A stretch of DNA of 22,911 bases, from IMG/VR virus record IMGVR_UViG_3300031658_000141, positions 1 through 22,911 of that record. The stretch is one strand, 5' to 3'. Positions 1-14,301 of the stretch are shown here, piece after piece. Below the pieces are notes generated by a model that was not told the origin of the DNA, did no database searches, and worked only from the letters and a program-made list of their open reading frames with translations. The stretch's first letter is position 1, and each line of letters opens with the position of its first letter. Source of the DNA: a virus. The translations under genes and the position numbers were made by a program.

Positions 1-1031
1 GTTGTAGACCTAGCATAAGTAATTACTACTTGATTAGAATCAGAATTATAATTAGCAGATATGTAGCCGAGGTTGGCATTAAGGAAATTTACTTGAGAGC
101 CTATTGCCCCAATATCATCTTCATTTTCTACTGGTGCTATATTTACTGCGCCGAAGTCAGGGCTGTCCATTCGGTAAGCAATTATTAGTTTAGCTTGCGT
201 AGTGTCATAGGCGAGACTTATGCTTGTGACGTTTGCAGTCGTAAAAACTACGGCGGTATTTACACTGCGTAGTGTCCCGGCAACATCTATAGTACGCACA
301 TAACCTTTATCGCCGTTACCACGGTCCCTATACCCAATCAGAACTATAGACGCAGTTGCCGCAACTATAGCAAGGTTATCAACATTTGTTTGTTGAAAAG
401 CAGCGGCTGATCCAAAAGCTACGGAAGTCCCACTGATTGTCGCAACGATAACTTTTCCGTAATTACTGTCAGATTCGTCCCTATAAATAATTACGTTTTT
501 TGTTTCTTCAGCAGTATAGGCTACTCTTACAAACGTGGATGTGCCACTACGAAATACTGAAACTGTGCCAAAGCTAATTGAGTTATTTGAAGGGTTTACA
601 GTTCCTACAATAGCTTTTCCGTAAGAGCTATTACCGTAATCCGTAAATGCGATTAAAACTTTGTTTGCATTTACATCATAAGTTATATCACCCTCAGTAG
701 TAGCACTTTCAAACACAACAGGCGTCCCGAATGAAATACTTGAATCTGAATTAACCTGACCCACTACGGCAGTGCCATAACTACTGTTCCCATCGTCACG
801 ATAGCAGATTACTATCCTATCTGATCCAGTATCATCCGCTATGCTCATTTGATAAGGGCTTCCCGAATCAAACTGTGCTGTAGCGCCCACAGAGTCGGGG
901 GACCCCGTTGCAGAAATCGCACTAACAGTCCCATTAGCATTAACCACAACAGGATCACCATTGGGCAACGTACCACTGGCAATGGCGTTCAGCTTTCTTA
1001 CTTGTGTGCTGGGTGTACCAATGGTGCGCAT
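1..1031 (-). CDS. Second propeller-type fibre protein, N-terminal part (partial)
   Basis: An open frame of 343 codons runs from the ATG at 1031 off the left edge with no stop. It starts MRTIGTPSTQVRKLNAIASG, then TLPNGDPVVVNANGTVSA, clearly paralogous to the N-terminus of the 870-aa protein. At least five propeller units follow, plus part of a sixth. Examples are ICYRDDGNSSYGTAVVGQVN, IAFTDYGNSSYGKAIVGTVN and IIYRDESDSNYGKVIVATIS with SISFGTPVVF-type ends. Units 4 and 5 are more diverged and lack the SGTSISFG signature. It probably reaches seven blades and a collar domain outside the window. Receptor binding is inferred. A tandem gene duplication followed by divergence explains the pair. Confidence 0.88.
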   Translation of the reverse strand, partial: MRTIGTPSTQVRKLNAIASGTLPNGDPVVVNANGTVSAISATGSPDSVGATAQFDSGSPYQMSIADDTGSDRIVICYRDDGNSSYGTAVVGQVNSDSSISFGTPVVFESATTEGDITYDVNANKVLIAFTDYGNSSYGKAIVGTVNPSNNSISFGTVSVFRSGTSTFVRVAYTAEETKNVIIYRDESDSNYGKVIVATISGTSVAFGSAAAFQQTNVDNLAIVAATASIVLIGYRDRGNGDKGYVRTIDVAGTLRSVNTAVVFTTANVTSISLAYDTTQAKLIIAYRMDSPDFGAVNIAPVENEDDIGAIGSQVNFLNANLGYISANYNSDSNQVVITYARST

Positions 1032-1035
1032 ATGA

Positions 1036-1299
1036 TTATTCCTCGTCTTCGAGTGTCGGGTCTACCCAATCAGAGTTTGCAGTCCAAGATGTTCCGTCAA
1101 AGAAATACTTGTTGCCAGTCCAGTCGGCTGGGGCGTTGGTCACGTTGTCTGTGACAGTCACTGTGGTGCTGTTCAGATCACCAATGATGAACTGTGCAGG
1201 GTCTCCTACAGTGATGTTGTCTGCTGTAGCTGTGATTGTTACGTCATCAGCAAGAAGGTACTTACTCAGGTTGGTTGATGTTTCAACGATAGTTTTCAT
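1036..1299 (-). CDS. Small conserved phage protein between propeller genes, 87 aa
   Basis: Begins MKTIVETSTNLSKYLLADD and ends DWTGNKYFFDGTSWTANSDW followed by an acidic tail. I recall proteins with the same MKTIVETSTxxSKY start and DWxGxKYFFDGTxW motif in many marine phages, next to fibre genes, without known function. It starts 4 bases after the preceding stop with an AAAGGGTGA site. Its final codons carry the ribosome binding site of the next propeller gene. A fibre chaperone or small fibre-tip subunit is possible from context only. Confidence 0.85.
   Translation of the reverse strand: MKTIVETSTNLSKYLLADDVTITATADNITVGDPAQFIIGDLNSTTVTVTDNVTNAPADWTGNKYFFDGTSWTANSDWVDPTLEDEE
1039..1044 (-). 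promoter_or_regulatory. Ribosome binding site for the partial propeller gene
   Basis: GAGGAA lies 7 bases before the ATG at 1031, within the last codons and stop of the 87-aa gene (GAG GAA TAA). It fixes the start of the gene that runs off the left edge. Confidence 0.8.
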
Positions 1300-1303
1300 T
1301 CTG

Positions 1304-3916
1304 TCACCCTTTCACGATGATGTCTGTGGCTGACACGGCTGTGCCAGCGATTACTGATGGGTCATCAGCCGTTAGGCCAAGCGTCCCGTCTGTTTGTACA
1401 AAGTATTGTTGGCCTGCTGTGAGGCTGAGTTGATTAGTGCTGATTGCACTGCCAATGTCTATGGTGGCTTTGGAGCCTGATGCTACTTCGGCTCTTGTCG
1501 TAACTATAGTGTTTGGTTGAAAAACAATAGCGGTTGCGGAGTTAGAGTTACCTGCGTCTTTGTAAAAAACAACATTTTTGTTTTGATCTGGATCATATAC
1601 ATTCCCAATAAACTCATGTGATCCACCAGTATCTAACACAACCGCTGTTCCAAAAGAAATAGATGTACCACTCACAACACCTCTAATTGCTGTAGCATCT
1701 CTATCATCCCCTCCTTCATAAGTAATTAATACTCCACCTGAATCTGTGTCAAAAGATACAGCCGATACGGAATTACTTTGATATGTATCTGTTCCTGTAA
1801 AGGTTACAGGTGAACCAAATGAAATAGAAGTCCCTGATACTGTTCCAACCAATGCAACTCCAACGCTACTAGCGCCATTATCTCTATAGACAATAACTAT
1901 TTTGTTATTAGTGCTATCAAACGCCGCCGCGACATAACTACTACTTGCAGCAAATGCCGTAGCAGAACCAAAACTAATGCTAGTTCCGCTCACAGTTCCA
2001 ACAATTGCAGTTAAATAATTACCATTATCCCCATCTGAATATGCAATAACTATTTTATTATTACTGCTATCGTAAACAGTATTAGTCCAATTTGTTGCGC
2101 CCGCCTCAAAAACTACAGGAGTGCCGAAACTTACAGATGTGCCGTTAATAGTACCAATTACGGCTGTACCGTAGGAAGAATTATCGTTATCACGATATGC
2201 AATAACTGTTTTATTATTTGAAGCGTCATATGCAGAAGAAATATAAAGTGCATTTGCGGACTCAAAAACAGTAGGCGTCCCAAAACTAACTGATGTACCA
2301 CTAATAGTCGCTACTATCGCTGTGCCGTAATTACTATTCCCCCCATCTCTATAAGAAATTAAAAGTTTTCCTGCTGTTGAATCAAAAGATACTGACGTAA
2401 ATGAGAGTGTAGATTGTGTTTCAAATATAGCGGGACTCCCAAAAGATATGGACGATCCTGAAACAGTTCCTACAATAGCCGTGCCTTGGGAAGAGTTGTC
2501 AATGTCCCTGTAAGCTATTAATACTTTGTTATTAGTTGTATCATAAGCACCTGAAAAATTCTTTGCATTACCATCAAAAACAACTTCACTCCCAGTGGAC
2601 CCCGCCGAACCTGTCTGCACAACCGACCCACTCGACATACCAATGTAGTTCTCAGAGGTGAGGTTTGTGGCATCAGTTGCGTTTTGAAAAACCCTTGCAG
2701 TACCCTTATATGAATTAATACCACCTTCGTCACCGTAGACTACAACTACTTTTTTCTGGTCAGGGTCATACACACTACCTAAATGCTGAATGTCAAAATT
2801 GCTAAAGTTTGTTGCAGTCCCAAAAGAAGGAGTTGTCCCGCTTATAGTAGTAGGAAGATTTTTTCCGGAGTTAGGAGAAGTTCCTGTTTCCTCAAAAGAA
2901 ATAACAGTTTTACTTGCGTTTGCATCATAAGCAAGACTAATTCCTCTAAGCACTAAAGCAGAATCATCAAATACAACTATACTTCCAAAAGAAATATTTG
3001 TCCCAGAAACTGTCCCTACAACACACTTTCCTTTATTACTGTCGCCACCATCTTTATACGCAATTAAAACCTTTTGAGCACTTGCATCGTATACAATTTT
3101 TTGTGCTCCAGAAGTAGTACCACTTTCATACGTTACCTGATTACCAAAACTGATAGAGGTGCCACTTATTGTGCCGACTGCAGCACACCCTGCACTTCCA
3201 TCACTGTAGTTTGTCCATATTGCAACTACTTTTTGAGTGCTGGCATCATAAGTAATATCTTCAACTGCTGCATTATTACTGGATATGTCAGCCTCACTAC
3301 CAAAAGAAACGGAAGTCCCACTTATTGTGGCTACTTTAGCCTTTGACCTTCTGCCACTACTACCTTGATCTCTATAAACAACAACACATTTTTGAGCATT
3401 TTCATCGTATGCAATAGCCGTTGTAGAAGAAGAACTAGAGCTAAAAACCACCGAAGAACCAAAGCTGATTGACGTGCCGCTGACAGTCCCGACAATAGCA
3501 GTTCCGTATCCAGAGTTAGCGTTTGATTCCCAGCTAAAAATAACTGAACCTGCGTTTACATCAAAAGCTGCGTTTAAAGCACCGGGCGAATTACCTGTAA
3601 AAACGGTAGGTGATCCAAAAGATATTGATTGACCACTAACTGTTCCAACTACAGCCGTACCCCTACCGCTGCTGCTGCTATAGTCAGCGTACCCTACAAT
3701 AACTTTGTCATTACCGGGGTCATAAACTGCTACACTATAAAGGCTTTGTGCTGCCTTAAACACAACGGCAGAACCAACGCCTTGAGTTAATGTAGCTAAC
3801 CCAGCAACACTTACAGTTCCATCAGCATTCACGATTACAGGTTGCCCACTGGGCAGTGTGCCAGAGGCAACAGCTTGTACTTCACCATCTACAGGTGTGT
3901 TGCCAAGGGACCGCAT
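1304..3916 (-). CDS. Double beta-propeller-type putative receptor-binding/fibre protein, 870 aa
   Basis: After an N-terminal domain (1-45, ASGTLPSGQPVIVNADGTVS) there are 14 repeats of about 43-54 residues, each with a VVF strand, a YDxxNNKVVIAYRD strand pair and AIVGTVSGTSISFG. Units 1-7 cover residues 50-411 and units 8-14 cover 445-800. The seventh unit of each set lacks the GTxSGTSISFG ending and instead exits as ARVFQN or AIVFQP, as expected where a propeller closes. Between the sets is a short NLTSENYIGMSSG linker. The end (805-870, with NQLSLTAGQQYFVQTDGTL and ATDIIVKG) is a collar-like domain common in marine fibre proteins. Receptor binding is inferred from position and modular repeats. 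No enzymatic residues were recognised. Confidence 0.88.
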   Translation of the reverse strand: MRSLGNTPVDGEVQAVASGTLPSGQPVIVNADGTVSVAGLATLTQGVGSAVVFKAAQSLYSVAVYDPGNDKVIVGYADYSSSSGRGTAVVGTVSGQSISFGSPTVFTGNSPGALNAAFDVNAGSVIFSWESNANSGYGTAIVGTVSGTSISFGSSVVFSSSSSSTTAIAYDENAQKCVVVYRDQGSSGRRSKAKVATISGTSVSFGSEADISSNNAAVEDITYDASTQKVVAIWTNYSDGSAGCAAVGTISGTSISFGNQVTYESGTTSGAQKIVYDASAQKVLIAYKDGGDSNKGKCVVGTVSGTNISFGSIVVFDDSALVLRGISLAYDANASKTVISFEETGTSPNSGKNLPTTISGTTPSFGTATNFSNFDIQHLGSVYDPDQKKVVVVYGDEGGINSYKGTARVFQNATDATNLTSENYIGMSSGSVVQTGSAGSTGSEVVFDGNAKNFSGAYDTTNNKVLIAYRDIDNSSQGTAIVGTVSGSSISFGSPAIFETQSTLSFTSVSFDSTAGKLLISYRDGGNSNYGTAIVATISGTSVSFGTPTVFESANALYISSAYDASNNKTVIAYRDNDNSSYGTAVIGTINGTSVSFGTPVVFEAGATNWTNTVYDSSNNKIVIAYSDGDNGNYLTAIVGTVSGTSISFGSATAFAASSSYVAAAFDSTNNKIVIVYRDNGASSVGVALVGTVSGTSISFGSPVTFTGTDTYQSNSVSAVSFDTDSGGVLITYEGGDDRDATAIRGVVSGTSISFGTAVVLDTGGSHEFIGNVYDPDQNKNVVFYKDAGNSNSATAIVFQPNTIVTTRAEVASGSKATIDIGSAISTNQLSLTAGQQYFVQTDGTLGLTADDPSVIAGTAVSATDIIVKG
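1517..2587 (-). repeat. Second seven-unit propeller repeat set (residues 444-800)
   Basis: Seven units more alike than those of the first set, for example AYRDGGNSNYGTAIV and AYRDNDNSSYGTAVI type cores. The last unit ends TAIVFQP, mirroring the exit of the first set. Confidence 0.85.
2684..3769 (-). repeat. First seven-unit propeller repeat set (residues 50-411)
   Basis: Seven units of about 45-54 residues. The last is short, ending TARVFQN without the SGTSISFG strand. The DNA copies are strongly diverged in codon choice while the motif is kept. Confidence 0.85.
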
Positions 3917-4287
3917 TAGCTGATCTCTTCGTAACTAATCGTTGCTACAAGATCAGATGCAGCGGAAGCTATTCCGCCAAGAGATTTATCTTCCTCTAAA
4001 TATATGGCTGTACTTTTATCCAGAACAACAAGAGCGGAGTCGGCAGGCACTGAAATCGTAGAAGCGATAGCAATGCCGGTACCGCCAACATCATCTTGCG
4101 GATACAGATTGACTGTAATATCGGCAGCGTTAGTGCCATCAATATTAGTAATTATAAGCATGTTGACTTTAATAACCTTGCTTGAACTAGCAGGGTTTTC
4201 TAAAATTTGTGTAGCTGATGTACCGATAGCAACCTGGGCTGTCTTGGCGGTAATCGTCGCAACATTTACGACATTGGGGGCTGACAT
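3916..4287 (-). CDS. Small beta-rich virion protein near the fibre genes, 123 aa
   Basis: Predicted beta-sandwich with strands such as KVIKVNMLIITNID, ADITVNLYP, SALVVLDKSTAIYLEEDKSL and DLVATISYEEIS. Similar small proteins with the LxKxTxIYLEExxSL and VSYEEIS pattern occur beside fibre or structural genes in marine phages, as far as I recall. The role is not established; a fibre-associated or capsid/tail accessory part is likely. It has a strong AGGAGA site that follows the fibre stop, and its own stop overlaps the start of the propeller gene as TAATG, so it is coupled to the receptor-binding module. Confidence 0.8.
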   Translation of the reverse strand: MSAPNVVNVATITAKTAQVAIGTSATQILENPASSSKVIKVNMLIITNIDGTNAADITVNLYPQDDVGGTGIAIASTISVPADSALVVLDKSTAIYLEEDKSLGGIASAASDLVATISYEEIS

Positions 4288-4299
4288 TTATATTCTCCT

Positions 4300-6033
4300 T
4301 TAACCAAAGACCATCGCCATTGCGATTGCTTTTCCTGTTGTTGCTGTAGAGTTTAGGTGCGCTGCGTTTACTGTAAGATCGCTAATCTGAGATACGTTTA
4401 TGCTTGTCGCCACCGGCGCAACGTCCTGCCAAGCAGATCCATTGTAGACCCTGACTTTATCTGAGGTTGTATTATAAACCAAATCCCCTTCGTTCAGACT
4501 GTCTGACGGGTCGGAGCTTGCTATTCGATACTGAGCCGCAAAATTGTTTACGGAGCTTATATTAGACGCAACAGTATTTACGTTACCTATTGATCCAGAA
4601 ACATTCGACATCGCCGTGACATTAGCAGACGTTCCAAGAACATTCATTACAGTGACATTGGCAGAAGTGCCTAAGACATTCATGTCATTAACTACATCAG
4701 CAGTCCCAAGTATTGACATGTCTGTTACAACTGCGCTTGTTCCTAACAGGTTCATCGCAGTGACGGTTGCCGAGGTTCCCAAGACGTTCATGTCATTAAC
4801 GACATCCGCCGTGGCAAGAACATTCATGTCTGTTACAACGTCTGCTGTAGCCAAGACATTCATGTCCGTTACCACATCAGCAGTCGCCAGAATGTTCATG
4901 TCGTTTACTACGTCAGTAGTCCCCAAGATCGCCATGTCGGCAATGACCGCAGACGCGGCTAGAGCATCAATGTTAGTTTGCTCTGCGCTTGTGGGTGTAG
5001 TGCGCAGCCAGGTTGTATTGCCAAGGTTATAAACTTTTGTGACGTTGTTGGTAGTATCAAAAAACAGCGCGCCATCAATCAATGCGTTGCCATCATTATC
5101 AACAGTAGGATCGCCGCCAGAGGTAGATTTAGCCCCCAGGTAACGATCATCGAATGTGTCATAGACAGCCTCTGCCGCAGCCTGGGCTGTTTCAGATGCA
5201 GCCTTTGCTGTTTCGGACGCGCCCTGAGCAGTTACGCTTGCGTTCTTTGCAACGACACTTGCGTCTCTCGCTGTCTCAGAGGCCGCCTGAGCAGTCTCTG
5301 CGTTTGTCTCTGCTGTCTCTGCCGCTGTCTCGCTTGCGGCTGCTGCTGTAGCGCTGGTGGTTGCTGCGGCTGCATTAATAATCAAATCATACTTTGCAGC
5401 GTTAGCATTTGTCGTAATAGGTTGGGAACCGCTAGAAGTGTGCGCAGTTTTTACCATAAAGATATTATTAGTGCTTGTGTCCTTAACCAAGTCGCGCACT
5501 TCATAAGCGGTAGACGCGGCCCAATTTCCCCGAAACGTGCCGATCTCTTGGGTAATGCTAACATTGCCGGAGCTATCAAAAGCAAAAATCTTATTTGCAC
5601 GATCTGTTGCAGAGATTGTAAATTCAGAGCCAGTAATGACGTTTGTTCGAGAAGCCTTGATTGTTCGACCAAGCTCTTCTTTGTGCTGCTGCACCATGAA
5701 GGTCAGTTTGTCTAAACTGTTTTCCAGAGATTGGGCTGGAAAAGGATCGTTAGGAACTAAATCTAATCCTTGATCCAGATCCAATTCGCGCAAGATAACA
5801 ATGGTAACTCCTGATGCCGGTGCAGCCCCAAACACTACGTTGCCGCCGCCAGCAGCCCCCACACCTGTAACAGTGTAGTTAGTTGTGATCGATTGGACTG
5901 TTTCGGTTCCAGCGCTTGATCGAAGGATAACCGTCAACTCATCTTGGTCAAAAACCTTAAAGCCATAAGCAAAAGTCGTAAGCGTGTTATTGCCGCTGTA
6001 ACTTGCTCGATTAGTGCTGCTTGATACTGTCAT
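4300..6033 (-). CDS. Tail fibre with T7 gp17-type N-terminus and 12-residue repeats, 577 aa
   Basis: Residues 1-130 match the N-terminal virion-attachment domain of T7 gp17-like fibres (FAYGFKVFDQDELTVILRSS, NYTVTGVGAAGGGNVVFGAA, LVPNDPFPAQSLENSLDKLT). Residues of about 165-215 form a small GNWAASTAYEVRDLV module resembling carbohydrate-binding modules. Residues 219-290 are an Ala/Ser/Thr/Glu coiled coil. Residues 300-345 hold a GALFFDTTNNVTKVYN module, 357-476 ten 12-residue repeats, and 510-540 a NEGDLVYNTTSDKVRVYNGS module. The protein ends in TTGKAIAMAMVFG, a C-terminus I recall from marine phage fibres. No large receptor-binding head is visible, so it may act as a trimeric stalk or adaptor for proteins encoded downstream. 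The start has an AAGGA site. Confidence 0.9.
   Translation of the reverse strand: MTVSSSTNRASYSGNNTLTTFAYGFKVFDQDELTVILRSSAGTETVQSITTNYTVTGVGAAGGGNVVFGAAPASGVTIVILRELDLDQGLDLVPNDPFPAQSLENSLDKLTFMVQQHKEELGRTIKASRTNVITGSEFTISATDRANKIFAFDSSGNVSITQEIGTFRGNWAASTAYEVRDLVKDTSTNNIFMVKTAHTSSGSQPITTNANAAKYDLIINAAAATTSATAAAASETAAETAETNAETAQAASETARDASVVAKNASVTAQGASETAKAASETAQAAAEAVYDTFDDRYLGAKSTSGGDPTVDNDGNALIDGALFFDTTNNVTKVYNLGNTTWLRTTPTSAEQTNIDALAASAVIADMAILGTTDVVNDMNILATADVVTDMNVLATADVVTDMNVLATADVVNDMNVLGTSATVTAMNLLGTSAVVTDMSILGTADVVNDMNVLGTSANVTVMNVLGTSANVTAMSNVSGSIGNVNTVASNISSVNNFAAQYRIASSDPSDSLNEGDLVYNTTSDKVRVYNGSAWQDVAPVATSINVSQISDLTVNAAHLNSTATTGKAIAMAMVFG
4606..4965 (-). repeat. Ten tandem 36-bp (12-residue) repeats in the tail fibre gene
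   Basis: The units follow the pattern V/I-L-A/G-T-A/S-D/A-V-V-T/N-D/A-M-N, for example VLATADVVTDMN, and correspond to fibre residues 357-476. The first unit (ALAASAVIADMA) is degenerate; the other nine are close. The DNA copies differ at many third positions although the protein copies are nearly identical. A rod-like trimeric fibre segment is the likely structure. Confidence 0.9.
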
Positions 6034-6089: not shown

Positions 6090-8573
6090 CTATTCAAATG
6101 CTTTCGATATTTCTGGCGCACGGCTAGGTGTAGTATCTCCCTGCCCCCACCAATATTTTTGTCCTGTCTGTTTTTTTGTTCTATTTTCCAGCCTGCGAAA
6201 CTTAGATTTTGCTTTCGGATCAGTCATTAGCTGCATTTGATCCCATAAACCGCGCTCCAATGCTAGGCGTCCATACCAAAGAGAAGACCCTGGCGTGTGA
6301 CGTTGTGTGAACTTAACCATTTCACTGGCAGCGTTTGTATCCTGGCCTGTGGCCGCTTGGTACAGATTGCCCACTGTTAGTTCAAGAAGGTCTTGACCCG
6401 CACCGGCAACCGGCCCAGCTATTGTTTCGGATAGCCCTGACCCATAGCGGCTTGTACCGGAAGTTAGGAAATCACCAAAGATGCCTAATCCGCCGCCCTG
6501 CATAAAAGCTGCAAACCAAAACTTTGCTGTTTCTTCGCTATCGCCAAACATTTCACGCGGATCTCTACCCTTGGAAACCTCTTTCATTTGCATCGCTAGA
6601 GCGCCCATGAGAGTTGTAGAGATTAACAGATTTGAATAGTACGCACCTTTAGAAGATGATTGCGGCAGCTGCATCCCGCGCATCAAGTGCGTATTAACCA
6701 GGGTAACGCCAAAGTTTTTATACATTGCAAACGATCGGGCCATTTCGCCAGTTAGCGTTCCAGGCTGCGTGCCGCCAGTTAGGAATGTAGCGCCACGAAC
6801 AGATGTTGAGGGAACCGCAAAATTGGTTTCCGTGTTTATCATTTCCAGCAACCTGGTAGATATGTTTTCGCGCAGATCCTCATCAATATCAGTGCGCGCA
6901 GCAATGTCTGTAGGACGTATAAACTTTGCGCCCTTCTCGTCATATGGATCTGTGCGCCGTATTATGTCCCACTGCGTAGCCTGGATATTGTACCGTTCCA
7001 TTGTAGAACGAAAGTTAGGGTCTAGCTCGTCAAAGGCTTTGCCAGCATTGCGGGCTACAGTACCCATAAACTCCATGCCAAATGCCCACCGTCCGGCCGA
7101 AGTCATAGGCGACAAGAATGACGCCCTCATAACAAAGTCAGATATTCTGCGCGTGACCTCTGGTCCCGACATATCCCCGACAAAACGCATTTGACCAGCA
7201 GCAAGGCTAGTCCAACCCTCAGCAATCAAGCCGGAGCTAATAGCAAGCTCACCTTTTTCCTTGGCCCCTAGCGGGCTTATATATTTTAAATAATCTTTAA
7301 GTATGCCAGTTTGGGGCAGTCCAGAGAATTGACGGGCAAGGCGCTGAAAATTAACATCTGTTATTGCTGAGATTGCAGCCGCGCCAAGTTGCGCAGACTG
7401 CAAGATTTGGCGCGTTCCTGCCATTGTCGATGAAAATTTGCTGTTAATAGGAGAGTTGTTTCTGCCAGATACAGCCATATACATATCGTCAAGTCGCTTG
7501 CCGGTAGAGCGCGCCTTGTCCTTTAGGGCTTCATCCTTTGCCATGTTGGCTTGCTTGGTCAGACTGTCTTTCATAAAAGTTATAGTTGACGTTGGGTTAG
7601 GGCCAAGCACTTCCATCATTGCAATATCGCGGGACATATTAGAAATGTGAGAAACCATAACATCAAACACGTTATCGTCGCCAAATTCCCTTTGATACTC
7701 AAGCCAGCTATCAGCATCCTTAAAAACCAAAAAGCGGTGATCCTGGCGTTGGTTGGCAAGGCTTTTGCCACGCTGGCCGGAACCAGGCCGCATTTTGTTT
7801 GCGCCCTCTGTAGTTATAGTTTCGTAAACATCTCTTAAAGCTAACTCTAAGCGCTGAGGTGTGAAGGCAAGACCCGTCATTTGGTCTATCATATCATTAG
7901 GAGAAAGCTTAGGAAGAATGCTGCTTCTCCAACCCTCATAGTCAGCTTTGCTTATTTTTAAGCTTTGATGATTTTGAGGCAAGAACCACTTTTCATTTTT
8001 AGGAATAGATCCACCGGCACGATTAAACTTTTTGCGAAGTGTCTCTGCGGTCTTAGTCCATGCAGCCGCCATCTCTTTCGCGCTGACATCTCCCGTATTT
8101 TCGCCAAAGATCTCGCGCGTCATGTTTTTAAGCTGCGCTTTTTGCCGAACCTCCCCAACCAGGTTGCGCCGAAACGTACCAAGAACCTTGTTCATCTCAG
8201 CAAAAGCCATGCCTTTTACGGCGTCTTCCCTTTGAGTAACGCTAGAAAAACGAGACATCCCATCTTGTTCAAGATGCGCAATTGCTGCGGCAAAAGGATT
8301 GCTGCGTCCCAGAGGGTCTTTGTATTGGTTCATATTAAAGCTAACTTGCTGCCAAGCCTTAGCTGTTAAAAGCTTTTTCCGTTTGCGCTCAAAGGCTTGC
8401 CGCTCAAGAGCGTCAAAGGTATCACGCGCAGCTTGGCTAGAAGCCGGTCCAGATCCCATCTTTCCCTGGTACTGCTCTTCAAGCTCATCAAGAAGATCCC
8501 GCGCTTCCTTCGCCTGGGCTTCTGTGATGGTTCCCTCGGCCTGGGCGTTAATAATACATTCCCTAAAGCTCAT
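6090..8573 (-). CDS. Second giant ejected/internal virion protein, 827 aa
   Basis: The ATG at 8573 is chosen over the GTG at 8582 because of Shine-Dalgarno spacing and the ATGA overlap with the 1093-aa gene; the longer reading would give 830 residues. The rest of this entry uses 830-residue numbering. The protein is mainly helical. It has the block RFLVFKDADSWLEYQREFG (283-301) and VMVSHISNMSRDIAMMEVLG (308-327), which recurs in large virion-associated proteins of podoviruses. Hydrophobic, Gly-rich segments follow: LQSAQLGAAAISAI (394-407), YYSNLLISTTLMGALAMQM (648-666) and FWFAAFMQGGGLGIFGDF (688-705). Together with the 1093-aa protein it takes the place of T7 gp16, so it is expected to be ejected and help form the DNA channel across the inner membrane. 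No enzyme motif was recognised. Confidence 0.85.
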   Translation of the reverse strand: MSFRECIINAQAEGTITEAQAKEARDLLDELEEQYQGKMGSGPASSQAARDTFDALERQAFERKRKKLLTAKAWQQVSFNMNQYKDPLGRSNPFAAAIAHLEQDGMSRFSSVTQREDAVKGMAFAEMNKVLGTFRRNLVGEVRQKAQLKNMTREIFGENTGDVSAKEMAAAWTKTAETLRKKFNRAGGSIPKNEKWFLPQNHQSLKISKADYEGWRSSILPKLSPNDMIDQMTGLAFTPQRLELALRDVYETITTEGANKMRPGSGQRGKSLANQRQDHRFLVFKDADSWLEYQREFGDDNVFDVMVSHISNMSRDIAMMEVLGPNPTSTITFMKDSLTKQANMAKDEALKDKARSTGKRLDDMYMAVSGRNNSPINSKFSSTMAGTRQILQSAQLGAAAISAITDVNFQRLARQFSGLPQTGILKDYLKYISPLGAKEKGELAISSGLIAEGWTSLAAGQMRFVGDMSGPEVTRRISDFVMRASFLSPMTSAGRWAFGMEFMGTVARNAGKAFDELDPNFRSTMERYNIQATQWDIIRRTDPYDEKGAKFIRPTDIAARTDIDEDLRENISTRLLEMINTETNFAVPSTSVRGATFLTGGTQPGTLTGEMARSFAMYKNFGVTLVNTHLMRGMQLPQSSSKGAYYSNLLISTTLMGALAMQMKEVSKGRDPREMFGDSEETAKFWFAAFMQGGGLGIFGDFLTSGTSRYGSGLSETIAGPVAGAGQDLLELTVGNLYQAATGQDTNAASEMVKFTQRHTPGSSLWYGRLALERGLWDQMQLMTDPKAKSKFRRLENRTKKQTGQKYWWGQGDTTPSRAPEISKAFE

Positions 8574-11500
8574 TTTGCGCACCCTCTTAAACGATCCAGC
8601 ATTTTAACATCCTGGTCAAATTCATCCTTCATGTCTCGCAATGTTTGGAATTGCGGCACGATTTCGTTTGTCTTCTCATCCAGGCGGCTACCGATCGGGA
8701 TCTCCGTATCTTCTCGGAAGTTGACTTGTAGCTCTTCTAGCAGTATATCGGTGTCGGAGGTATCAACATTGAGATTTTTTCTAGTAGACGGGTCTATACC
8801 CACAGTCGAAACAGAGCCAGGCGCAATGGTGTCTCTTGCAAGTGACGGGTCTTGGAAGCCTATTTCCTCTGCTGCAATACTTTCGGATACCCGCTCACCA
8901 GAAGTTACGCGAGAAATGGTAGCGTCACTGACTACCAGGCTCGGCTGGTCTATGCCCGATGGCAGCTGACGGTTTATAAGTGCCGACCAGCTTCCAGAAA
9001 GATTGCCTGCAACCTCCCCATACAGATTTTTCATATCCTCAACCGCTTTGGCTCTAGCTGCATCGGGTTGATTTAAATCACGCGATATTTTGTAAAGCTC
9101 AGTGCCGCCGCTTTCCTTTGCTTCCAACATACCAGGAGGCCAGATCTGGACCTCTCCAATTTGTCCATCATCGAATACAACGGAAAGCTTGCGGTCAAAA
9201 TAGCCTTCACTTGTAAAAGCATATCCTTCATCAATAACCTTGTATCGCTTGGATAAAGCAGCAATGAATTGCTCCGCAGCTTCGTTTGTTTCAGCACTAA
9301 TTCCACCACGCGCGACATCTGTAATTCGGTTCAGATCACCAGAGTATTTATCTCGCAGTTTTTCCTCGACACGTTCACGCTTTTTGAGTTTTGCTGGTTT
9401 CTGTTTTGCCCCAGCCAACTCAGCAGCCCTGGAAATCTCAGAAGTTAATTCCGCGTGGTTGCGCTCTGCGCGTACCATAATTTCATCAACATCAATAAAA
9501 TTTTGCTCTGTTTTAACTTGGCTTTCAAGAACCTTGCTTTCGATAGGGTCCATATCTTGAAGCCGAACAATGCGATCTTCTGGCATAACAGCAGGCTTGC
9601 CGATCTTTGCCTTAGCTGCATCATTTGCAATCACGCTGCCCAGGACATCGCCCTCTAACTGGCTGGCCTGGTCTAAAGCCCCTTGACCAAACGCATCATC
9701 AAATGCGTCTAGCTGGCCTTCCTCTGCGCTAGTTCGTATTGACGCGATTTCATCTGGAGCATTGAAAGTGCGTCCAGCATCGCCAATTTCTGCGCGGTCG
9801 AATTCGCCTGCTGAAATTGCTCGTCGGACATCTTCGATAAAGCTAGTTGTAGCGGCGTTATAGCTTCCGGTTTCTTTTGCGTTTCTTGCTGCTTCGGTAA
9901 GGGCGTCTGAGAGAGCGCCTTTCCTGTTCGCTTGACTTTGGAGGAGCGCGACCGCTTTGCCATCTTCTTGAGCCCTTTTCTGATTTGCATCTCTAGCTAA
10001 TAAGTTACCTTCATCTTCAAGCCTAGTAGCGTTCTTGATGAGGTTTTGAAATGAAGATTTATCTTTGCGCAGCTGTTTTTGAGCTCGGTCTAAAACCTTT
10101 GCACGCTCCATAAAAAGGCTAGTCGTAAGCACTTCTTCGCCAAACAGGTTCTCTTGCGTTTCAGACACCATGCTAGTTTCTCTTACCTGACGCACAATCG
10201 ATTCTGCCTGGAATGCGTTAGCCGGTTCTGTTTTCGCCAAAACATTTAAGGCTGCTTTCTGCAAGTTTTCATCACCAGGGATTAACCGACCAACAATAGC
10301 CGCAAAGTTTGGAGAAACAACCTCGTTTTTAACCATTCCCCAAGCTTCACCGACCAGGTTTGCAAGATCAGTTGCCTGGCGAACAAATGCCGATCGTGGT
10401 GGTAACTCGCCAATGCGCTGTGGGCTAGTTCGCAAAACCTTTGCAGCGTCAATCGCGCTACCCGTCCCCTCAGATATATTCTTTAGAGCGGCTGTGACCA
10501 TAGCATCTTCTGGCGTAATCCCGTCAACTTCGCGCAAACGATAGCCAATCATTTTGACGTTCTGTGACGGATCTTGCTGAGAGATCCGCTTGGCAAGGCC
10601 TAGTCTCTGGTGGCCGTCAGCAATGAATAAGCGACCATCCGCATACTCATAGATAGTAACCATGCCACCCTTAATAGGATCCCACTGGGTTACACCCTGG
10701 AGCCGGTCAGTCACCCCAAACTGGTCGCCACCTTCTTTAAACTGAAACGTCTTAGCATCCACGCCAATATCGTTAGGATCAAACTCGTCAACAATACCTC
10801 TAATGTTTGTTGCTCGGTTTACGTTATCCGGCAACTTTACCGGAGAGGCAGGGATCTCAGAAACCTTGGGAAGCTTCCCATTGGTAAACGCAATATCCGC
10901 TTCGGTAAGACGCGCGTTGTGCTCTATATCAGCGTCCTGGGTTCTGACCAGGGGGGTACTTTCTGCGGCTGAGGTGTAAACTTCCTCTAATACTTCGGCG
11001 TTTGCCTGCATTGGGGATTTCCGTCCCGCTGCCTGACTGAGAACTTTAGCGCCTTGCCTTGCCTGGCTTGCTGTAAGCTTAACTGTATCCGCGCCAATTT
11101 TAATGGCTATTGGGAATGCGCCACCAATTAACGCCGCCTGTCCAACATTATTGCGAAAATCTTCCCAGCCATATTTTAGGCCTAGACTTTTGTACCATGC
11201 AGCTACACCAGGTTGCTGTATTGCTTCGGTGGTAGCATTTACAGCCGCTTCGTAAAAAACCATACCAAGCAAACTTTTTCCAGTTTTTACCCAACCAGCA
11301 GGCAGGGCCATAGCAGACTGATTTATTGGGTCAGTTGCACCAAATCCCATACCGCCAACAAACCTGGCAGTTACATTCCCCAAGCCTGGAGATCTAGCAG
11401 TAAGCTCCGCTAATTCACTTTGTTCAACAAAGTATTTGTCTCTTGCGGCTGCAACCCAAACTTTATCCCGCTCTGGATCAAGAACAGACACAACAAGCTC

Positions 11501-11851
11501 TGGCGGTAATGCCTCACGGTTTTCCCGAACATAGCTTTCAACCTGCTGTGCTTCATAATCGTATCGTTTTTTACCGTAACTACGCATAGCCTCGCCAGAA
11601 AGAATGGAAAGAACATTCGGGTTTAGATACGAACCTGGATTTTTAAAAGACTTGCCAGTGATACTTTCAATTTCATCGACGATAGGCTCCCAGGTGTCCT
11701 CTACATACAATTCAGCAGCAGATCCGCTTTGCATCCTGGCAGCATCAAACGATTTCTTTACGTTTTCGATAAACCCACCTTCGGGCTTATTGCGTCGAGG
11801 AACCGTTGCAAAAGAAGTTGGGTTTATTTCATCTCTGAGGTAACTACTCAT
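8570..11851 (-). CDS. Giant ejected virion protein with ParB-like and RelA/SpoT-like domains, 1093 aa
   Basis: In the place of the N-terminal part of T7 gp16, but without a visible lytic transglycosylase. In order: a charged helical N-terminus (1-150); Gly/Ala-rich amphipathic segments (about 160-260, for example NNVGQAALIGGAFPIAIKIG) suited to membrane or channel contact; a ParB/sulfiredoxin-like domain (about 385-480) with LFIADGHQRLGLAKR (DGHQR at 412-416) and ALKNISEGTGSAIDAAKVLR; a long helical linker (480-800); and a RelA/SpoT-like domain (about 805-925). The last has a KLKKRERVEEKL basic start, ITDVARGGI (Asp845), EGYFDRKLSV (Tyr884) and GQIGEVQIWPPGMLEAKE (Glu900). A C-terminal helix ends in RDMKDEFDQDVKMLDRLRGC. 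The domain calls are from pattern, the virion role from position, and effector activity is inference. Confidence 0.85.
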   Translation of the reverse strand: MSSYLRDEINPTSFATVPRRNKPEGGFIENVKKSFDAARMQSGSAAELYVEDTWEPIVDEIESITGKSFKNPGSYLNPNVLSILSGEAMRSYGKKRYDYEAQQVESYVRENREALPPELVVSVLDPERDKVWVAAARDKYFVEQSELAELTARSPGLGNVTARFVGGMGFGATDPINQSAMALPAGWVKTGKSLLGMVFYEAAVNATTEAIQQPGVAAWYKSLGLKYGWEDFRNNVGQAALIGGAFPIAIKIGADTVKLTASQARQGAKVLSQAAGRKSPMQANAEVLEEVYTSAAESTPLVRTQDADIEHNARLTEADIAFTNGKLPKVSEIPASPVKLPDNVNRATNIRGIVDEFDPNDIGVDAKTFQFKEGGDQFGVTDRLQGVTQWDPIKGGMVTIYEYADGRLFIADGHQRLGLAKRISQQDPSQNVKMIGYRLREVDGITPEDAMVTAALKNISEGTGSAIDAAKVLRTSPQRIGELPPRSAFVRQATDLANLVGEAWGMVKNEVVSPNFAAIVGRLIPGDENLQKAALNVLAKTEPANAFQAESIVRQVRETSMVSETQENLFGEEVLTTSLFMERAKVLDRAQKQLRKDKSSFQNLIKNATRLEDEGNLLARDANQKRAQEDGKAVALLQSQANRKGALSDALTEAARNAKETGSYNAATTSFIEDVRRAISAGEFDRAEIGDAGRTFNAPDEIASIRTSAEEGQLDAFDDAFGQGALDQASQLEGDVLGSVIANDAAKAKIGKPAVMPEDRIVRLQDMDPIESKVLESQVKTEQNFIDVDEIMVRAERNHAELTSEISRAAELAGAKQKPAKLKKRERVEEKLRDKYSGDLNRITDVARGGISAETNEAAEQFIAALSKRYKVIDEGYAFTSEGYFDRKLSVVFDDGQIGEVQIWPPGMLEAKESGGTELYKISRDLNQPDAARAKAVEDMKNLYGEVAGNLSGSWSALINRQLPSGIDQPSLVVSDATISRVTSGERVSESIAAEEIGFQDPSLARDTIAPGSVSTVGIDPSTRKNLNVDTSDTDILLEELQVNFREDTEIPIGSRLDEKTNEIVPQFQTLRDMKDEFDQDVKMLDRLRGCAK
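8583..8588 (-). promoter_or_regulatory. Ribosome binding site that decides the start of the 827-aa protein
   Basis: AAGAGG stands 9 bases before the ATG at 8573 but directly touches the in-frame GTG at 8580-8582. Only the ATG has usable spacing, and it also forms an ATGA overlap with the preceding stop, the dominant junction type in this cluster. Confidence 0.8.
9077..9409 (-). other. Encoded RelA/SpoT-like nucleotidyltransferase domain in the 1093-aa protein
   Basis: Residues of about 815-925. Asp845 (TDVARGG) and Glu900 (GEVQIW) are 55 apart, close to the 59 between the catalytic Asp264 and Glu323 of the Streptococcus RelSeq synthetase (numbering from memory). Tyr884 and Lys888 fall where Tyr308 and His312 of that enzyme would lie. 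The substrate cannot be told from sequence. Confidence 0.72.
10412..10699 (-). other. Encoded ParB/sulfiredoxin-like domain in the 1093-aa protein
   Basis: Residues of about 385-480. The motif ADGHQRLGLAKR corresponds to the D-G-H/N-H/Q-R core of ParB-N/sulfiredoxin-like domains, which bind or hydrolyse nucleotides (CTP in ParB, ATP in sulfiredoxin). The following KNISEGTGSAIDAAKVLR is a common companion in phage versions. The preceding YEYADGRLFI would be the beta strand leading into the motif. Confidence 0.8.
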
Positions 11852-14301
11852 TACTGATCCCTCAACCTAACAGCTTCTGTCCTGACTAAAACTTTGCGGC
11901 CTAAAATTCTTTTATTTTGCGCGTTGTTTTCAATGAAATTATCTACAGCTTGCTTGTCATTTAGATCTATGCCGCTGTTATTTAAGTCGTTAGCTAGTTC
12001 CCCTATCAAGACTTGATCTCCTTTAGTCGCTAGAAAACCGCTGTACTTTTTAGAGGATGCACTTTTAGGCGAAGATCGCACTAAATCTTCCATAGTAAAT
12101 GTTATATCAATGTCTGCATTGTCAGTTAGCATCCCATATTTACTATCGCCATACTCTCCGTCAAAAATCCCATAAACCATTTGCCCGTTTCTCTTGCCGA
12201 GCACTTGGATACTATAATCCTCGTCTTGGAATGCCTTAAAAACCTTTTGATTAATTACGCCATCCGCTGCTATGTCATTAAAGTCTTCATAAGATATAGA
12301 GTTTATAGCCTCATTGATTTCATCTGCTGTGCGGTTTGCTGGTAAAAGCGTGGGCTTGCCGGACACTTCTTGAACACCGCCAGTGCCTGTTTGAGAGTTG
12401 AAGCCAGAAGCTACTTGAACGGCCTGCAACCAGAGGCCTTCATCAAATTCTTTGTTAACTTTACGAGAAATAACTTCTGCATAATAGGCTTCGGCAGTAT
12501 CGCTAATATTCTTTTTTAGCTCTGCATTAACACCACCAGGCAGGTTTTCAAACGCCGTTCCTATAATGCTAAACATTTCTTTTTTGATTTCAGCCTTATC
12601 TGCACCTACAAAAGGGGAACCATTCTCCTCAATTTCAGAGATACCATTTAGAATAATCTCAGCCTGGTTTAGCAAACCATCCTGCATAAGCCCTGCAACA
12701 TGCGCAGTAACTGGAGAGTTCGGCGCAATCTGGGCCATAACCGCATTAGAGTAATCTCCAAACAGCTGCGTAATGTCGTTGATTGCCTGCATCTTCTCTA
12801 AAGCCGTGCCGGTATTCAATCTTGGGGCATACGCCAAAGCTTCGGTCGGGCGTAGAATTGTAAGAGGACCAGATAAATTATAATGGCCTTGAACCTGGAT
12901 TGCTGCCAAGATTCTTTTCTGAACTCCAGTTTGATCCTCTCCTGTCTCCTGGGTTCTCTTAATTGCATCCGCTGTTAAGTCCACTGACGCAACCTTTACA
13001 GCGCCTGTTTTAGAAGCAAAGCCAATAGGATCGCTTGCTAGTTGTTTATCCATGTTGGAACGGAAGCCGCGCAGAAATTCTAGTCCTAACAACTCTCTAG
13101 CTTGAAGACCTGGACCACCCATTAACTTGCCTGTTTCGGGGTCAATCGTGTCGCCGCTTTCTAGGCTCATTATCATACCATCAAGATCTTGAAGGTTTGA
13201 AACCTTTTTTACTGAGGAAGAAAGATCTTGTATGTACTGAAGATCTGCCAAGCCCTCTTGCAACTCGACTGCCTCTATGTTGTCGATAAATGGAGCAACT
13301 CCAGAAACCAATTTTTCTAGATCTGCAACTCCATTGCCTGGCAAAGTTCCGCCATCTTGGAGTATTTTTGCATAAGATGTAATCTGTTGGCCGGTTGTTT
13401 TTGCAACCTGCTTACCAACACGGATCTGCTTTTGCTCTTCCGCAGAAGCCGCGTCTATAAATCCAGCGCCAGTGCCAAGAGATTGCAGGATCTGGGCCTG
13501 ATTTTGCAGGGGAAGCTTTTTTAGAAGAGCAAGTTGCAGTTGGTTCTTGCCTGCTAAGTTTGGATCATTGTCCCTAATAGCCAGGCGGATGTTTTCAAGA
13601 TCACGGCTTGGGGTGTCGCTGCTTTGTATCGCTTGCATTAGGTTGCTTGTTACAGCACCTGTAATAACCGCAAACTCTTGCTTTTTTAATGCCTCTGGAT
13701 TGCCCAGGCCAAGCTGACCCATACGAATACTATCAACGCCAAAGTTGGAAGCAATAAGATTAAACTCATCAACCGATGTTACATTAGCAAGGTTTTGCAT
13801 TGTTGTATTAGCCCTGACCGCGCGGGCGGCTGTGTTGGCACTTTCAATCTTTTGGTCAATCGTGTTGCGCAAGGAAAACCGTTGCGTTAATTCCATCTGA
13901 TTGAAACGATCGGTCAGAATACGCCGAGACTCTAAGTCATTTACATCTTCAAGAAGCTTTTCGCGCGTGGCCTTGCTTGCCTGGGACCAGAGGCCTTCCT
14001 CTTCCTTACCGCCCTCATTGAAAACATTGCGAAGTTTGCCGGTTTGAATCTTTGATAGGTTCAAAGCCTCTTCTCTTAACGTCTCTTCGCCAGCAAGCAG
14101 TTTTTCATTAACCTGCGTTTCACGCGCAGCCTTGTAACGCATTGCCGTAAACTCAGCTGCCTGGCCTATTACAGCGCCAGATATGACGCTCTGGGCCTGC
14201 GCCTGCTGCACAAAGGGCTGCGCATTTGCTCGCGCTCGAAAGCTACGACCAGGAGCTTCGGATGTCATTTGTGATCCGGCTGTGTATGTAGGAATTCTCA
14301 T
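11851..14301 (-). CDS. Internal virion protein C-like (T7 gp15-like), 816 aa
   Basis: A long protein predicted almost wholly helical. It lies between the gp14-like gene and the two giant ejection proteins, where T7 places gp15 (747 aa), which forms the periplasmic channel during ejection. The start MRIPTYTAGSQMTSEAPG is of the type I recall from gp15-like proteins of marine podoviruses. Residues of about 30-150 are charged Ala/Glu/Arg/Gln-rich helix. The remainder consists of helical segments with few Cys and no recognisable enzyme motif; I see no lysozyme signature. The start has a GGAG site 7 bases upstream. The stop overlaps the next start as TAATG. Confidence 0.82.
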   Translation of the reverse strand: MRIPTYTAGSQMTSEAPGRSFRARANAQPFVQQAQAQSVISGAVIGQAAEFTAMRYKAARETQVNEKLLAGEETLREEALNLSKIQTGKLRNVFNEGGKEEEGLWSQASKATREKLLEDVNDLESRRILTDRFNQMELTQRFSLRNTIDQKIESANTAARAVRANTTMQNLANVTSVDEFNLIASNFGVDSIRMGQLGLGNPEALKKQEFAVITGAVTSNLMQAIQSSDTPSRDLENIRLAIRDNDPNLAGKNQLQLALLKKLPLQNQAQILQSLGTGAGFIDAASAEEQKQIRVGKQVAKTTGQQITSYAKILQDGGTLPGNGVADLEKLVSGVAPFIDNIEAVELQEGLADLQYIQDLSSSVKKVSNLQDLDGMIMSLESGDTIDPETGKLMGGPGLQARELLGLEFLRGFRSNMDKQLASDPIGFASKTGAVKVASVDLTADAIKRTQETGEDQTGVQKRILAAIQVQGHYNLSGPLTILRPTEALAYAPRLNTGTALEKMQAINDITQLFGDYSNAVMAQIAPNSPVTAHVAGLMQDGLLNQAEIILNGISEIEENGSPFVGADKAEIKKEMFSIIGTAFENLPGGVNAELKKNISDTAEAYYAEVISRKVNKEFDEGLWLQAVQVASGFNSQTGTGGVQEVSGKPTLLPANRTADEINEAINSISYEDFNDIAADGVINQKVFKAFQDEDYSIQVLGKRNGQMVYGIFDGEYGDSKYGMLTDNADIDITFTMEDLVRSSPKSASSKKYSGFLATKGDQVLIGELANDLNNSGIDLNDKQAVDNFIENNAQNKRILGRKVLVRTEAVRLRDQ

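Follow-up and report, generated by a model that had tools for sequence, protein, structure and literature searches.

Two predicted seven-bladed propellers in the loops of one collar domain in a pelagiphage-type fibre module protein

Beta-propellers occur in several phage receptor-binding proteins, including the five-bladed Gp45 of the S. aureus phage phi11, P2 of PRD1 and the seven-bladed gp131C of phiKZ (PMC4901313). The 870-residue protein described here resembles these systems in that a beta-propeller is carried on a phage surface protein, for which receptor binding is known or proposed (PMC4901313). It differs from them, however, as Gp45, P2 and gp131C contain one propeller per chain on other scaffolds, whereas this protein appears to hold two seven-bladed rings in the loops of a collar domain, resembles no PDB chain in sequence and belongs to a family whose members use different collar loops. 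The predicted fold of this type of collar may be similar to that of the phi29 gp8.5 base, lambda gpD, SHP and TW1 gp56 (PMC7602432); these proteins, in contrast, are capsid trimers for which that paper reports no propellers, while the context here is that of a tail fibre. In Alteromonas phages A5 and V22, as appears to be the case in this locus, a fibre domain has been gained by insertion, a partner chaperone is present and the module is common to distant phages (PMC10579305). In A5 and V22, however, it is a knob domain that was duplicated, whereas here whole propellers of apparently different origin occupy alternative loops, and the A5/V22 paper mentions no propeller (PMC10579305).

Two proteins of the same type are already on record. 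Gene 49 (AYP28108.1) of Lentibacter phage ICBM2, an isolated podovirus, encodes the same type of collar with related repeats, and the next gene contains the domain of the 87-residue protein found beside the propeller gene reported here. The ICBM2 protein differs in its modest identity (26-32%) and its single propeller region, and its partner bears an added Phage_tail_APC domain. The BFVD entry A0A516MG07, a viral protein of 865 residues, is nearly the same length, displays 37% identity and is the top match to our structural model (E 1e-61); it is probably a twin-propeller protein already deposited, unannotated. Adhesins with propellers, the modular exchange of fibres and fibre chaperones are thus established in phages; in the literature consulted we found no account of seven-bladed propellers placed in different loops of a single collar.

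The locus and its relatives

The window, the whole stretch of DNA analysed, is a 22.9 kb virus record of 22,911 nucleotides. Its virion genes constitute an HTVC010P-type pelagiphage set, indicative of a podovirus-type genome; tail tubular protein B displays 54% identity to that of Lederberg/HTVC010P, the gene order is the same, and the host of the virus is probably a SAR11 bacterium. In Lederberg a C1q-like protein occupies the slot of the propeller gene. The genes of the module lie on the minus strand in the following order:

4300..6033, minus strand: main tail fibre protein, with PHROG tail and tail fibre matches in the first ~120 residues (lowest E 1e-39)
3916..4287, minus strand: conserved 123-residue virion protein whose gene immediately precedes the propeller slot, 99% identical in the sister phage L086 and used as the slot marker in 80 contigs
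1304-3916, minus strand: open reading frame with an ATG start encoding the 870-residue twin-propeller protein
1036..1299, minus strand: 87-residue partner protein, a likely fibre-assembly chaperone domain judged by its similarity to ICBM2 and its co-occurrence with propeller genes
3..1031, minus strand: second propeller-array gene, truncated by the end of the window, with the N-terminal part of a collar and at least six blades

The full-length counterpart of the truncated gene in L086 (L086_11078_12529) has seven blades. The propeller gene belongs to the tail fibre module: it comes immediately after the fibre and 123-residue virion genes and lies beside a chaperone-like neighbour. Its original description as encoding a podovirus fibre protein is in accord with this gene order and with the PHROG fibre match in an HTVC010P-like genome. 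Within the fibre gene, the region 4544-5032 (minus strand) contains shaft repeats of the type ATADVVTDMNVL that are more numerous than in L086, which suggests that the length of the fibre shaft varies between the two phages.

Searches of Pfam, PHROGs and PDB sequences with the 870-residue protein returned nothing meaningful, and a profile of the collar and propeller retrieved antibody noise alone from PDB sequences. When the whole protein was scanned against IMG/VR as a single sequence there were hardly any matches, as the patterns derived from variable stretches; searching IMG/VR with an alignment of the blades identified over 500 relatives. The relatives analysed comprised 77 contigs obtained through the blade alignment and 80 through the upstream 123-residue protein. 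Scanning contigs of bacterial and archaeal genomes yielded six loci, all of which derive from metagenome bins and possibly represent viral contamination.

Two sets of seven blades

The repeat region of the protein comprises two domains:

2684..3799, minus strand: propeller 1, seven blades, in collar loop site 1 (residues about 40-411; seven blade matches; AlphaFold2 pLDDT about 90)
1514..2623, minus strand: propeller 2, seven blades, in collar loop site 2 (residues about 432-801; seven blade matches; pLDDT mostly 75-95)

A hidden Markov model of the ~52-residue repeat detected 14 copies, seven at residues 49-408 and seven at 443-798, and thus bears out the original prediction of fourteen repeats arranged as 7 + 7. 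The accompanying observation that the seventh unit of each set lacks the GTxSGTSISFG strand and leaves through a VFQ motif also holds, as unit 7 ends in GTARVFQ and unit 14 in ATAIVFQ. The AlphaFold2 model, which was built from an alignment of 23 twin-propeller proteins, adds one strand immediately ahead of the first blade in both sets (residues 40-43 and 432-435), and the absent outer strand of the last blade is presumably supplied by the residues before blade 1 in a 'Velcro' closure.

Blade numbers in the family were determined with a retrained model in complete open reading frames with at least three repeats (n=209). Exactly seven blades were present in 176 of these and exactly 14 in 25, while eight had another number; the related loci include near-duplicates, such that the counts are not fully independent, and some of the eight reflect missed degenerate blades, as in L100_12425, which scored 13 and is a 7+7 protein with one blade missed. 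With 201 of the 209 frames carrying seven or 14 blades the pattern is not due to chance, and counts in multiples of seven argue for closed seven-bladed rings, as open solenoids would not predict such numbers. The structure prediction that had been proposed as a check returned both propellers at a pLDDT of about 90 (mostly 85-95), with regular strands. When the model was searched with Foldseek the best PDB matches were mostly proteins with paired or multiple propellers (Pwp2, Elp2, the Utp proteins of the 90S pre-ribosome and DDB1), with low TM-scores that probably reflect uncertainty in how the two rings are placed relative to each other. Blade counts, AlphaFold2 and the matches to tandem propellers support the predicted assignment of both domains as seven-bladed beta-propellers, a fold shown here by prediction only.

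The collar and the origin of the second propeller

In relatives with a single propeller, the repeats are preceded by the collar motif AVASGxLxxGxPVVVNADGTVSVV and followed by TNLTSENYIGxxxG..ATVxxxGSV..QSGLTAGQxYYVQTDGTLG..AGTAxSATKLIVKG. These flanks form one domain of ~110 residues, which is uninterrupted in the natural propeller-less proteins L026_7417 and L019_5604; as both parts of the collar are joined there without a propeller, the propellers are inserts. The two propeller-less genes (L026:7417-7800 and L019:5604-5933) lie in the slot of the propeller array and are natural 'empty socket' forms. In the window protein the collar is split into three pieces:

3797..3916, minus strand: N-terminal part of the collar, with the hairpin AVASGTLPSGQPVIVNADGTVSV (residues 1-40; match to the N-terminal collar model)
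2627..2665, minus strand: collar strand NLTSENYIGMSSG between the propellers (residues 418-430; positions 3-27 of the C-terminal collar model; single copy)
1307..1510, minus strand: C-terminal part of the collar, with the LTAGQQYFVQTDGT hairpin and the last strands (residues 803-870; positions 11-80 of the C-terminal collar model)

It had originally been proposed that a collar remnant lies between the two sets of blades and that a full collar ends the protein. The C-terminal piece, however, lacks the NLTSENYIG strand, which in the window protein is found only between the propellers. The comparison of sequences indicates that NLTSENYIGMSSG, of which there is one copy, is the strand absent from the C-terminal piece and not a remnant, and the notion of the middle motif as a decaying second collar was dropped once collar elements had been counted in the twins. 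Proteins with a propeller at this second site contain a conserved stretch, TR(A/G)(E/Q)VA(D/S)G, in the outer piece; the collar model gives it a weak alignment to the NYIG columns, and it could conceivably be a degenerate second copy of the NYIG strand. The collar was poorly modelled in the full-length AlphaFold2 prediction (pLDDT 31-71); its fold in that model was set aside on account of this low confidence, and contacts among the three pieces are putative.

Among about 200 relatives, propellers emerge as swappable parts placed in different loops of this one small collar. Site 1, after DGTVSVV, is used by most single-propeller proteins. Site 2, after NYIGMSxG, is used in addition to site 1 by the window protein and by L042, L051, L077, L083, L100, L104, L116, L133, L143 and L160, while in L082_5593 the only propeller occupies site 2 and site 1 is empty. 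Site 3, before LTAGQxY, is used in the twins L033, L055, L062, L063 and L065, in which matches to positions of the collar model such as 4-40 and then 44-80 tile one collar. A more N-terminal position of insertion is found in L057, L104_9384 and L116_993, and in L036 two rings lie head-to-tail within site 1. Site 3 may also house a different repeat family, as in L014, L041, L083_1930 and L100_8439, which in L014 is SGL/lactonase-like by Pfam. These proteins (L014:4479-6731, L041:5421-7772, L083:1930-4149 and L100:8439-10685) combine one seven-bladed propeller with about five GTKMYV repeats at site 3; in ICBM2 the GTKMYV family is encoded by a separate gene (gene 51). Twin propellers had been considered an unusual architecture. 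They are, however, a recurrent minority form (about 12%): 26 twin proteins were found in 161 loci, and some phages have three twins in a row, L104:9384-17377 and L116:993-8947 each containing three consecutive twin genes with six propellers in all.

How the second propeller was acquired bears on a further element of the original prediction, namely that a whole propeller-collar unit was duplicated in tandem, after which most of the inner collar was lost. It could be argued that the 7 + 7 blades and the collar motif between the sets, both of which do exist, reflect such an event, that tandem propeller-collar units are found in nature, and that the two propellers of L036, and those of L063, are more alike than random pairs. 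Tandem units are represented by L169:3451-10503, a 2350-residue protein with four complete propeller-collar units on a contig that was binned as a Euryarchaeota MAG and is probably viral. When this protein served as a positive control the N-hairpin, NYIG strand, YVQTDG hairpin and C-strand were detected four, three, four and four times, respectively. In all 26 twins, by contrast, the N-hairpin, YVQTDG hairpin and C-strand are each present exactly once and the NYIG strand at most once (it was undetected in seven divergent twins), and the junctions fall in different loops. The single propeller of L082_5593, with site 2 alone filled, also argues against duplication. Propellers 1 and 2 of the window protein display 42% identity, less than random pairs from the family (mean 50%), and the predicted pairing of blade 1 with 8 and 2 with 9 did not materialize, as in-register identity (42.4%) was matched by shifts of four (42.6%) and six (41.9%) blades.

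The nearest relative of propeller 2 is instead a propeller from another phage. Propeller 2 shares 67% identity, blade for blade, with the lone site-1 propeller of L042_2877, although the sequence that follows the propeller differs between the window protein and L042_2877 (YLPAYSTSNLTSSENFIG versus FQPNTIVTTRAEVASG), and in a careful tree of 30 rows the two group with 100/100 support. Uniting propellers 1 and 2 in a clade costs 25 log units and is disfavoured, with formal rejection narrowly missed (p-AU 0.082); the branch leading to propeller 1 is long. A quick tree of 90 rows was discarded as poorly searched, the AU test having placed the constrained tree 48 log units better. As the protein has one collar with two interruptions, its blades show no register and its propellers are less alike than average, we regard duplication of the unit as very unlikely. 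Propeller 2 most likely came as a cassette from another phage and not as a copy of propeller 1.

Module exchange, virion location and function

The sister phage L086 provides a view of such exchange. Its 123- and 87-residue proteins are 99% and 97% identical, respectively, to those of the window, whereas the propeller gene in the slot has one ring; 36 of the first 37 residues of the collar, and most of the last 40, are identical. At the DNA level identity is 97-100% up to about position 3875 and 90% to 3815, the propellers are unalignable, and identity returns to 75-98% from about 1414, in the C-terminal collar. On this alignment the comparison shows exchange of propellers between conserved collar ends. 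The tail tube protein of L086 displays 76% identity to that of the window, while three proteins encoded just upstream of its fibre gene, where the window has its internal virion proteins, have no detectable similarity to these. A mosaic boundary is evident beside the fibre gene, with L086:2-7414 dissimilar to window 6090-14301 and the fibre module 92-100% identical in DNA over long stretches. In L134, L157 and L160 the slot genes are the same and no homologue of the tail tube protein of the window was detected; the module thus appears to move between phage types, with the proviso that homologues may be concealed where contigs are incomplete.

The 87-residue protein matches, at 43% identity, the N-terminal domain in the ICBM2 protein that ends in Pfam Phage_tail_APC. 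Homologues were present in 93 of 117 propeller loci and, in 93 of 94 cases, directly followed the propeller gene. The similarity to the ICBM2 protein makes it likely that these homologues are a family of dedicated chaperones for which Pfam has no model.

Where on the virion the protein resides was considered from its collar. The propeller-less collar of L026, modelled alone (pLDDT 72), gave as its best Foldseek match Adjutor 8saj (E 6e-4), with weaker matches to HFTV1, TW1, Pam3, Sf11, the phi29 gp8.5 base, SHP and lambda gpD; TM-scores were about 0.3-0.4. The collar, on this weak model, may therefore resemble the beta-tulip domains of capsid decoration proteins, making a capsid location possible. 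It could thus be proposed that the collar is a trimeric beta-tulip domain on the capsid that holds the propellers out from the head near cells or particles, a model that departs from our preferred explanation in location only. The best matches of the L026 collar are indeed capsid decoration or head-fibre proteins, and the base of the phi29 head fibre shares the fold (PMC7602432). The same fold, however, occurs in the phi29 preneck appendage (PMC7602432), and so does not settle head versus tail. The propeller genes, moreover, follow a tail fibre gene and are accompanied by a protein resembling tail-fibre-assembly chaperones, relatives in L009, L030 and L072 are fused to tail-fibre-type shafts or tips, and the ICBM2 module lies in the tail fibre region, which is variable (PMC6775973). 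Given the weak collar model and a fold that is not capsid-specific, we consider a head-fibre location improbable, and the genetic context favours a tail-associated adhesin.

A second question is whether the propellers bind or cleave. Several phage propellers, such as the K1F endosialidase, are enzymes, and those described here could be glycan-cleaving, tailspike-like domains and not binding heads. The repeats, however, match no Pfam enzyme family above chance (the rejected match to Cyclophil_like2 covers a single repeat), the PDB sequence search identified no solved homologue, and the propellers are highly variable among relatives, as expected for binding surfaces. We therefore give an enzymatic role little chance of being correct. 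That these propellers bind a receptor is inferred by analogy with phage receptor-binding proteins already known to carry a propeller (PMC4901313), and because genes of this kind are hypervariable in pelagiphages (PMC3909814).

The explanation that we prefer, and hold with reasonable though not full confidence, is that the product of the gene is an accessory adhesin from an HTVC010P-type pelagiphage, with a single collar in three pieces and propellers at sites 1 and 2. The small beta-rich collar formed by residues 1-40, 418-430 and 803-870 would anchor the protein, presumably as a trimer attached to the tail, and bear the propellers in two loops; the adjacent 87-residue protein would help folding or assembly; and the propellers would bind a ligand on the surface of the host, in all probability a SAR11-type cell, with a glycan or a protein as the probable ligand. 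A tail-fibre adhesin whose propeller heads can be exchanged, paired with a chaperone-like protein, is the most likely identity of the product. A bolder proposal, which we view as doubtful, is that the collar is a trimeric beta-tulip plug-board in which at least three loops each take an independent propeller, with arrays of three such genes, propellers swapped by recombination in the conserved collar ends and display possibly from the capsid. If this were true, six propellers could be displayed by a single trimer, and a phage with three twin genes in a row, as in L104 and L116, could present several kinds of propeller.

Pelagiphages are among the most abundant marine viruses, and their host-recognition genes are hypervariable, lying in metaviromic islands (PMC3909814), and mostly unannotated. 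This study offers a simple grammar for the variable part, in which a conserved collar has several loops that take propellers, singly, doubly or with an unrelated second type of propeller. The rule can be tested by annotators on hundreds of 'hypothetical' marine phage proteins, and defines domain boundaries for binding tests. The swapping of propellers suggests how these viruses trade candidate host-recognition parts.
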